Assembly (NCBI GenBank): GCA_003573975.1
Contig: AP018533.1
Location: forward strand, 806,001 to 870,000
Reading direction: 5' to 3'
Length of the DNA stretch: 64,000 nucleotides
DNA from: Clostridiales bacterium CCNA10
Lineage (GTDB): Bacteria; Bacillota; Clostridia; Oscillospirales; Oscillospiraceae
The notes below the pieces were generated by a model. That model saw nothing but the letters and a program-made list of their open reading frames with translations, had not been told where the DNA came from and ran no database searches. Shown piece after piece: positions 19,949-22,536 of the stretch (position 1 is its first letter; every line of letters starts with the position of its first letter). A program made the translations under genes and the position numbers.

Positions 19949-20437
19949 ATGTTGGATTTTCAGTTATCCACCGTGATCTTTACCGTCCTGAACCTGCTGA
20001 TCCTGTATGTGGTGCTGAGAAAGCTCCTGTTCGGGCGGGTCAACCGCATCCTGGAGGAGCGGGCTGCCCTGGTGGAGAAGGAACTTTCCAGCGCCGAGCG
20101 TCAGAAGGCCCAGGCGGAGGAAATGCGGAAGGAGTATGAGGACCAGCTCGCCCAGGCCCATGCCCAGGCGGCCAAGATCGTGGATCAGGCCAAGGCGCGG
20201 GGCGAGCAGGAGTACCAGGCGATCCTGGACCAGGCCCAGGAGGATACCCGCCGGATGCAGGAGCAGGCCCAGGCCAAGAACCGGGCCGACCGGGAGAAGC
20301 TGATGCGCAGCGCCCGGCAGGAGGTGGCCCAGCTGGCCGTGCTGGCGGCGGCCAAGGTGACGGGACAGGCCCTGGACCAGGATTCGGACCGGGCCATGGC
20401 GGAGCAGTTTTTGTCGGAGGCGGGTGAGCGGAAATGA
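19949..20437 (+). CDS. atpF: F-type ATP synthase subunit b
   Basis: The 162-residue peripheral-stalk subunit has one N-terminal membrane helix (about 5-25) and then a long charged coiled coil rich in Ala, Glu and Gln. It ends at TGA 20435-20437, overlapping by 4 bases the ATG of the fused delta-alpha gene, so translation is coupled. The delta subunit normally binds its C-terminus. Confidence 0.95.
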
Positions 20438-22536
20438 GCGATTCGATCCAGCGCAGCGCCGCGGTCCTCTATCAGATGGAGGAGGAGACGCCGGGGCTGA
20501 AGGAGTCCGCCCAGGCCCTGGTGTCGGACACCATGCTGTGGCCGGCGCTGAATGGGACCGGGGCAACCAGAGAGGAGAAGGAGGAACTGATCCGCACGGC
20601 GCCCATGCTGGCGGGGAAGGAGCAGCTGACCGCCTTTGTCCTCCTGCTGCTGGAGCAGGGGACGCTGGACAGTTTGCCGGCCATCCTGCGGGAGCTGCGG
20701 CAGCTGGAACTGGCGGCCCAGGGGGGCGCGGTGTGCGTGGTCACCTGCGCCCGGCAGCCGGATGAGGCCACCCTGGAGGATCTGCGCCGGGCGGTGTGCC
20801 GCCTGCGGGGACTGGAGCGTGTGATCCTTCAAATCAAGATCGACCCAGCCATTCTGGGCGGCTTTCGCCTGGAGGTCCAGGGTGTGGTCTATGACCGCAG
20901 CGTCCGGGGGCGTCTGGAGCGTCTGGCCCAGGGCCTAAAGGGCGATTTTGACGCGGACAGCGAGGAGCTGGAGGGTCTGGTAGAGGGCCTGAAATCCAAG
21001 ATCCAGGGCTTTGAGGTGGAGGACGGCAGCGACATGGGCAGCCTGGTCCAGAACCTCAAGACACGGATCCAGGATTTCCAGTCCGTGGGCGAGGTCCAGG
21101 AGATCGGCCGGATCCTCAGTGTAGGTGACGGAATCGCCCAGATCCAGGGTCTGGACCGGGCAGTCTACGGCGAACTGGTGGAGTTTGAGACCGGTGTTCA
21201 GGGCATGGTCATGGACCTGTCCCGGAACAGCGTGGGCTGTGTCCTGCTGGGACAGGAGGCCGGCCTGCGGGAGGGCAGCATCGTGACCCGAACGGGCCGG
21301 CCTGCCGATGTGCCGGTGGGCGAGGCCATGCTGGGCCGGGTGGTGGACGCCCTGGGACAGCCTTTGGACGGAATGGGACCCATCCGCACCACAGAGACCA
21401 GGCCCATCGAGCATGAGGCCAGCGGCGTGATCTCCCGGGAGCCGGTGAACGCTCCGCTTCAGACCGGGATCCTGGCCATCGACGCCATGATCCCCATTGG
21501 ACGGGGACAGCGTGAGCTGCTCATCGGCGACCGCCAGACGGGCAAGACGGCCATCGCGGTGGATACCATCCTGAACCAGAAGGGGGAGGACGTGATCTGC
21601 ATCTATGTGGCCATTGGACAGAAGGCGTCCTCGGTGGCCCGGGTGCGGGATACCCTCCAAAAGCACGGGGCGATGGACTACTCCATCATCGTGTCGGCTA
21701 CCGCCAGCGACCCGGCTCCCCTGCAATACATTGCGCCTTACGCCGGCGCGGCCATGGGGGAGTACTTTATGTCCCAGGGAAAGGATGTGCTCATCGTCTA
21801 TGACGATCTGAGCAAGCACGCGGTGGCCTACCGGGCCCTGTCCCTGCTGCTCAAGCGCTCCCCCGGGCGGGAGGCCTACCCGGGCGACGTGTTCTATCTC
21901 CACTCCCGCCTGCTGGAGCGGGCCTGCCGCCTGACCCAGGAGTACGGCGGGGGTTCCATGACGGCCATCCCCATCATCGAGACCCAGGCGGGGGACGTGT
22001 CCGCCTATATCCCCACCAACGTCATCTCCATCACCGACGGACAGATCTATCTGGAGACCGACCTGTTCTTTGCCGGGCAGCGGCCGGCGGTGAATGTGGG
22101 CCTGTCGGTGTCCCGTGTGGGCGGAGCGGCCCAGACCCGGGCCATCAAGCGCACCGCGGGCACTATGCGCATCGACCTGGCCCGCTTCCGGGAGCTGGAG
22201 ATCTTTACCCAGTTCTCCTCGGACCTAGATCAGGCGACCCAAAAGACGCTGGATCACGGCAAGCATCTGCTGGAACTGCTCAAGCAGCCCCTCTATCAGC
22301 CCATGTCAGTCAGTCGGCAGGCCGTTTTGCTGTACATCGGGACCAACGGGCTGCTGGATGACGTGCCGGTGGAGCAGGTCCGGGAATTTGCCTCGGGCTT
22401 TGCCGACCGCATCGAGCTGGAGCACCGGGAGCTGGCGCTGGAGGTCCAGCGGACGGGCAACCTGTCCGCCGTGGCCATCGAGACCATCCGGGCGGACCTG
22501 GAGAACTATAAGAAGGAGAAGCTGACGGTGGCCTGA
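20434..22536 (+). CDS. atpH-atpA fusion: Fused F-type ATP synthase delta-alpha subunit
   Basis: One open frame of 700 codons encodes two normally separate subunits. Residues 1-170 are a whole delta (OSCP) subunit: a helical N-terminal domain and the C-terminal signature [13 protein letters not shown] followed by [11 protein letters not shown]. Residues about 201-700 are a full alpha subunit with P-loop GDRQTGKT (365-372), the adenine-site and Arg-finger region [12 protein letters not shown], and the C-terminal helical domain. The 30-residue joint repeats an alpha-N-helix motif: [12 protein letters not shown] (183-194) and [12 protein letters not shown] (204-215). An ATG at 21034 (Met201) with GGAGG 11 bases upstream could restart a 500-residue alpha subunit. 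No stop or frameshift is visible between the parts. Confidence 0.95.

Follow-up and report, generated by a model that had tools for sequence, protein, structure and literature searches.

Here, we describe an F-type ATP synthase operon in which the delta and alpha subunits are encoded by one gene, a genuine fusion that joins a complete delta and a complete alpha in a single frame (20434..22536, + strand; 700 aa, beginning with ATG and free of internal stops), and we trace this and related fusions through other genomes. The gene lies in the window, that is, the whole stretch of 64,000 nucleotides of the Clostridiales bacterium CCNA10 genome that was analysed. Since it is the sole source of both subunits, each F1 would most plausibly carry three deltas, one of them docked with the main stalk and two spare, a reading to which we assign a probability of roughly 0.55. 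The original prediction of a continuous delta and alpha frame of 700 codons is borne out by the agreement of the open reading frame, Pfam and TIGR00962, and the stoichiometric problem that it raised, three alphas against one delta per enzyme, is real for this fusion.

The operon has the classical F-type order a-c-b-[delta-alpha]-gamma-beta-epsilon, as established with Pfam, TIGRFAM and home-made profiles, and all of its genes are on the + strand. It begins with atpB for subunit a (listed open reading frame 18709..19671, with the true start probably further in; PF00119 at residues 122-312, E 6e-45), atpE for subunit c (19717..19935; PF00137, E 3e-17) and atpF for a single, separate subunit b (19949..20437; PF00430, E 7e-26), the stop of which overlaps the start of the atpH-atpA fusion in an ATGA at 20434-20437. 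Downstream are atpG for gamma (22565..23455; PF00231, E 3e-90), atpD for beta (listed open reading frame 23475..24887; TIGR01039, 802 bits) and atpC for epsilon (24889..25296, its start inferred inside the listed open reading frame 24841-25296; PF02823 and PF00401). Within the fused chain, Pfam places the delta (OSCP) match at residues 21-166 (E 2.4e-22), PF00213 scoring 80 bits against a cut-off of 22 over positions 25-170 of its 172. Both delta domains are present by PF00213 and the home-made domain profiles: the N-terminal domain (NTD; residues about 1-100, 20434..20733), which is predicted to be helical, and the C-terminal domain (CTD; residues about 101-170, 20734..20943; PF00213 up to residue 166), by homology the b-binding part. 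The alpha subunit proper extends from residue 205 (21046..22536) and matches the atpA profile TIGR00962 at residues 205-695 (772 bits, cut-off 484; profile positions 8-500 of 503), with the Pfam barrel, nucleotide-binding and C-terminal domains at residues 221-288, 345-560 and 567-690, respectively.

The host genome is a single contig of 3.56 Mb, with completeness of 99.4% and contamination of 2.9%. OSCP is matched once in it and alpha, at E <= 1e-120, likewise once, both times by the delta-alpha gene. The same genome encodes a V/A-type ATPase A subunit (G000:C1:1549972-1551711) that scores 919 bits, under the family cut-off of 972, which points to a second rotary ATPase in the cell. In the surroundings of the operon, a sensor kinase, a response regulator and a substrate-binding protein (14940-18724, - strand) are transcribed divergently from it, and an IS110-type transposase (29287-30537, - strand; PF01548, PF02371) is located on its downstream side.

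The linker, measured from the end of the delta profile to the start of the alpha profile, spans 60 residues in the window compared with 35-47 in 15 relatives. It holds a direct repeat of 22 codons, which amounts to two copies of the alpha N-terminal helix spaced 66 nt apart. The first copy (linker helix 1, 20968..21033) is predicted to be helical at residues 178-191, and the second (linker helix 2, 21034..21099), which occupies the position where alpha normally has its N-terminal helix and shares 65% identity over 26 nt with the reference copy of the repeat family, at residues 200-217, both with pLDDT below 50. At the head of the second copy is a candidate internal start, ATG (21034..21036; Met201), which would yield a free alpha of 500 aa, and 11 nt before it stands a Shine-Dalgarno-like GGAGG (21018..21022; duplex energy -9.3) that is not conserved in relatives. 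Judged by these signals, ATG 21034 may function as an internal start specific to the window organism or may be due to chance.

When the delta and linker of the window's group were used as a profile against a second collection, 20 loci were returned, including Candidatus Intestinimonas pullistercoris and assemblies of Oscillibacter, Flavonifractor, Gemmiger and Subdoligranulum. The same in-frame join occurs at 15 of these loci, Pseudoflavonifractor phocaeensis An569 and Gemmiger gallinarum DSM 109015 among them, five of the 15 (L179, L180, L182, L185 and L191) being, by their length, contigs that are also in the genome set; 14 end at 678-692 aa and L182 is cut by the contig end. The other five loci encode a delta of 175-196 aa that is separate from the next gene (labelled beta by the motif rule in L197). 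In the window's own genus, an alpha match was found in 41 of 61 genomes, with full delta-alpha fusions in three (G000, G128 and G879), separate alphas of 522-525 aa in seven, frames of 591-797 aa in 27, and short or unclear cases in the remaining four. The 11 of these 27 long frames that were read (L208-L217 and L051) all encode a delta CTD joined to alpha (deltaCTD-alpha).

For a broader survey, subunit profiles were built from the fetched loci and 174 stretches were read, the window included, with alphas picked by motif. Removal of repeats left 175 distinct loci, 102 fused and 73 separate, figures that give no prevalence, most loci having been chosen for a long open frame. The counts leave out loci that were filtered by alpha motif or length, at least the full delta-alpha L036, the triple fusions L049 and L057, the cut full delta-alpha L055/L182, and L117. 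The 175 loci comprise 64 with a separate delta containing both domains, 24 with a full delta-alpha fusion, 60 with deltaCTD-alpha, in which the delta NTD was not found by profile (doubtful for L042, a sister to the full-length L041, and for L056, cut at the contig start), 17 with a b'-deltaCTD-alpha triple fusion, one with a tandem deltaCTD-deltaCTD-alpha (L050:4023-6065), four with a separate deltaCTD beside a separate alpha (L158, L161, L162 and L163), two with b-deltaCTD next to a separate alpha, and three in which delta was not found and beta-epsilon come first. The triple fusions (L043-L049, L057-L059, L131, L133, L135, L136, L138, L139, L148, L151 and L157; 737-815 aa where uncut) include, within one polypeptide, the membrane helix and the coiled coil of b, and a separate b gene is also present in those of their operons for which upstream genes were read. 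Pfam agrees on seven examples: the OSCP match starts only at position 93-102 of 172 in the five fused alphas tested, and ATP-synt_B matches the N-terminus of two triple fusions. In even draws of genomes, 11 of 13 triple-fusion genomes showed no second alpha match at E <= 1e-120. By taxonomic rank, alpha matches with an open frame of at least 575 aa made up 44 of 91 (family), 25 of 69 (order), 29 of 136 (class) and 11 of 137 (phylum), counts that were made by eye over overlapping draws and that include the frames of G043:C3 and G847, separate alphas by annotation.

The operons with separate genes suggest how such fusions could arise. At all 12 junctions sampled in separate relatives, on 11 contigs (L193 and L203 being one contig), the stop codon of delta and a possible start codon of alpha share a four-base overlap, GTGA or ATGA, with an alternative ATG two codons on in L052 and L206; thus, one small indel would join the frames. 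In the delta tree, in which L066, L098 and L127 form long branches, the window's group contributes 12 fused deltas, which constitute one clade (support 100/99), and the other six full-length fusions stand apart, with separate deltas in between. A single fusion event is rejected, given that separate deltas part the 18 full-length fused deltas into two sets. The alpha tree (81 rows, quick search) calls for 10 changes between fused and separate states and six in the presence of the delta NTD, and on the alpha and delta trees gain and loss of the fusion cannot be told apart. Full-length fusions branch first in a large, mostly deltaCTD-alpha clade of the alpha trees (fork support 81-97), a pattern that fits an order in which fusion came first and loss of the delta NTD second. 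Within the window's group, the alpha and delta trees conflict and fused and separate alphas are intermixed, suggesting that exchange between operons, or splitting, probably occurred there too.

The median ratio of NTD to CTD divergence is 1.56 in the window's group, compared with 1.13 in the other full-length fusions and 1.11-1.12 in separate deltas. Decay of the delta NTD was considered and dropped: with alpha as the yardstick, the NTD does not evolve faster, and the CTD evolves slower. At 75-80% alpha identity, among pairs that are not independent, mean identity in the window's group is 0.45 for the NTD and 0.62 for the CTD, against 0.35-0.39 and 0.43-0.45, respectively, in separate deltas. 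By this measure of sequence, the delta NTD of the window is no less conserved than its counterpart in separate deltas, and the CTD is more conserved.

Every in-frame ATG, GTG and TTG in the linkers of the 102 fused genes was scored for upstream pairing with the 16S tail. With repeated loci removed, a linker start with an energy of -7 or lower is present in 14 of 102 fused genes as opposed to 55 of 73 separate alphas, or 13 of 100 and 49 of 66 after dereplication at 97% identity; by form, such starts occur in 4 of 24 full-length, 10 of 60 deltaCTD, none of 17 triple and not in the one tandem fusion. The background, measured on 2838 in-frame start codons in alpha bodies, is 9.2%. The linker lacks ATG in 47 of the 102 fused genes and any of ATG, GTG and TTG in 14. 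Internal initiation is therefore rejected as a general solution and, with few good linker starts in comparison with separate alphas, most members of the family probably employ alpha in its fused state. Gamma and beta, too, share one open frame in five loci (L113:6064-8454; L141, 795 aa; L146, 649 aa; L159, 768 aa; and L160:2284-4584), of which L113 and L141, and L159 and L160, are kin. A fusion of rotor and stator should block rotation. All five frames retain a start codon before beta (energies -4.9 to -11.4, the strongest sites being the AAGGAGG of L159 and L160), in keeping with a need to synthesize rotor and stator as separate chains.

A close counterpart of these chains has been engineered. 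In a 2025 study by Ueno and colleagues (PMC12229609), the delta NTD was removed and the remainder fused to alpha in the Bacillus PS3 enzyme, and the resulting deltaDeltaN-alpha FoF1 had up to three stalks, three a subunits and an H+/ATP ratio of 5.8. In the normal enzyme, as described there, one alpha N-terminus contacts the delta CTD and the other two contact the NTD on the three-fold axis, and it was argued that the NTD holds the stalks to one. The delta CTD, the junction and alpha of the window protein align in the same order with the engineered chain (PDB 9jc1, the second-best sequence match), and the natural deltaCTD-alpha L145 aligns through the 9jc1 junction with a linker three residues shorter. 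In the predicted model of the window protein, the delta NTD block has pLDDT of 77-90 and is predicted to be folded, whereas the CTD has 76-81, down to 50 at residues 161-170, and the linker is below 50. A structure search with this model ranks 9jc1 first; however, the model is weak overall (pTM 0.42) and the whole fit is poor (TM 0.32/0.39, rmsd 25), so that it carries no information on docking.

We infer that the window gene is translated mainly as one chain and that each F1 has three deltas and a single main stalk. In favour of this reading are the single frame, the sole copies of both subunits in the genome, the presence of both delta domains and the occurrence of the join in relatives. As the only source of delta and alpha, the gene would place one delta on each of the three alphas; each delta CTD would adjoin the N-terminal helix of the alpha to which it belongs, an arrangement that one delta has in the normal enzyme and that is covalent here, and would bind the b dimer. 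Because the NTD is kept, and the normal enzyme offers it just one seat, on the three-fold axis, one delta would be expected to dock fully and hold the main stalk, the other two being spare. Against it, three delta NTDs cannot share that seat, and ATG 21034, behind its GGAGG and between the two helix copies, would give a free alpha of normal length. Use of that start alongside the full frame would restore the classical 3:1 ratio, with one delta-alpha and two free alphas per F1, and both the energy of the site and the 500-residue product speak for it, but the site is not conserved (of the near-identical L033 and L185, only L185 has one), 20 of the 24 full delta-alpha genes have no such site, and 3.9% of the 2838 in-frame starts in alpha bodies reach -9 or better; we regard this alternative as rather unlikely. 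Of the three ways out offered by the original prediction, tolerance of extra deltas fits best, and a free alpha from an internal start finds no conserved signal in the fused genes.

Quite unlikely, in our estimate, is cleavage of the linker after translation, freeing delta and alpha, with surplus delta degraded. The linker is predicted with low confidence, is perhaps flexible and differs in length among relatives, but no shared motif was seen by eye in 88 junction rows, some of them repeated, and the engineered chain, which is uncleaved, has a linker three residues longer than L145 does. The altered peripheral stalk that was also envisaged draws support by analogy from that engineered enzyme (PMC12229609). 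In such an enzyme, the delta of each alpha would recruit its own b dimer, and with it an a subunit, giving two or three stalks and a higher ion/ATP ratio; the three-residue gap in the alignment of the NTD-less L145 through the engineered junction is in line with this, but the window keeps its delta NTD with no sign of decay, the very domain argued to limit the stalks, and for the window enzyme we consider this unlikely. An error of sequencing or assembly that fused two genes is practically negligible: close relatives do have separate, overlapping delta and alpha genes that one indel would fuse, but other assemblies share the join, their linkers are alignable, and the fused deltas form a clade of their own.

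To our knowledge, an F-type enzyme contains a single delta and a single a subunit, and the ion/ATP ratio is left to the size of the c-ring. The supposition that a delta-alpha fusion had not been described before does not hold, for PMC12229609 points to natural cases, namely Acidaminococcus fermentans, with a fusion devoid of the delta NTD, and two UniProt entries, and guesses at a natural use of added stalks and a raised ion/ATP ratio. The window resembles the A. fermentans and Bacillus PS3 chains in that the delta CTD is joined to the alpha N-terminus with the same order of parts, but differs from both in having the whole delta NTD and from the engineered chain in the 22-codon helix repeat of its linker. 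We found no report of a full-length delta-alpha fusion in the open-access literature, and none of a b'-delta-alpha fusion or of repeated origins in open-access papers, including those citing PMC12229609. Among other systems, the b-delta fusion of Mycobacterium and Gordonia (PMC5709465) likewise joins an F-type subunit to delta, but there the partner is b, which the window encodes in a separate gene, rather than alpha, an arrangement free of the 3:1 problem. N-ATPases (PMC5706428, PMC5709465) are F-type enzymes with an altered stalk too, yet they are devoid of delta and their operons are ordered differently, with beta-epsilon first, whereas the window has delta and the classical order. A-/V-ATPases, with two or three peripheral stalks (PMC6131620), indicate that a rotary ATPase can function with more than one stalk, although their stalk subunits are different (E and G in the V-type), whereas the window genes are F-type.

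These findings raise the question of whether ATP synthases with more than one side stalk exist in nature. By analogy with the engineered enzyme, the NTD-less relatives are good candidates for multi-stalk enzymes, and the b'-deltaCTD-alpha triple fusions are the strongest natural candidates for an obligate multi-stalk F-ATPase. Speculatively, and with considerable doubt, multi-stalk F-ATPases might have evolved repeatedly in the window's phylum by placing a delta CTD on every alpha, in one clade together with a membrane-anchored b', such that the full-length delta-alpha of the window would represent a surviving first step that preceded NTD loss and might have more than one stalk part of the time. 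The survey provides dozens of natural candidates in graded forms, from separate genes through full delta-alpha and deltaCTD-alpha to b'-deltaCTD-alpha, and the form in the window, which keeps the NTD, allows the proposal that this domain restricts the enzyme to one stalk to be tested directly in nature.
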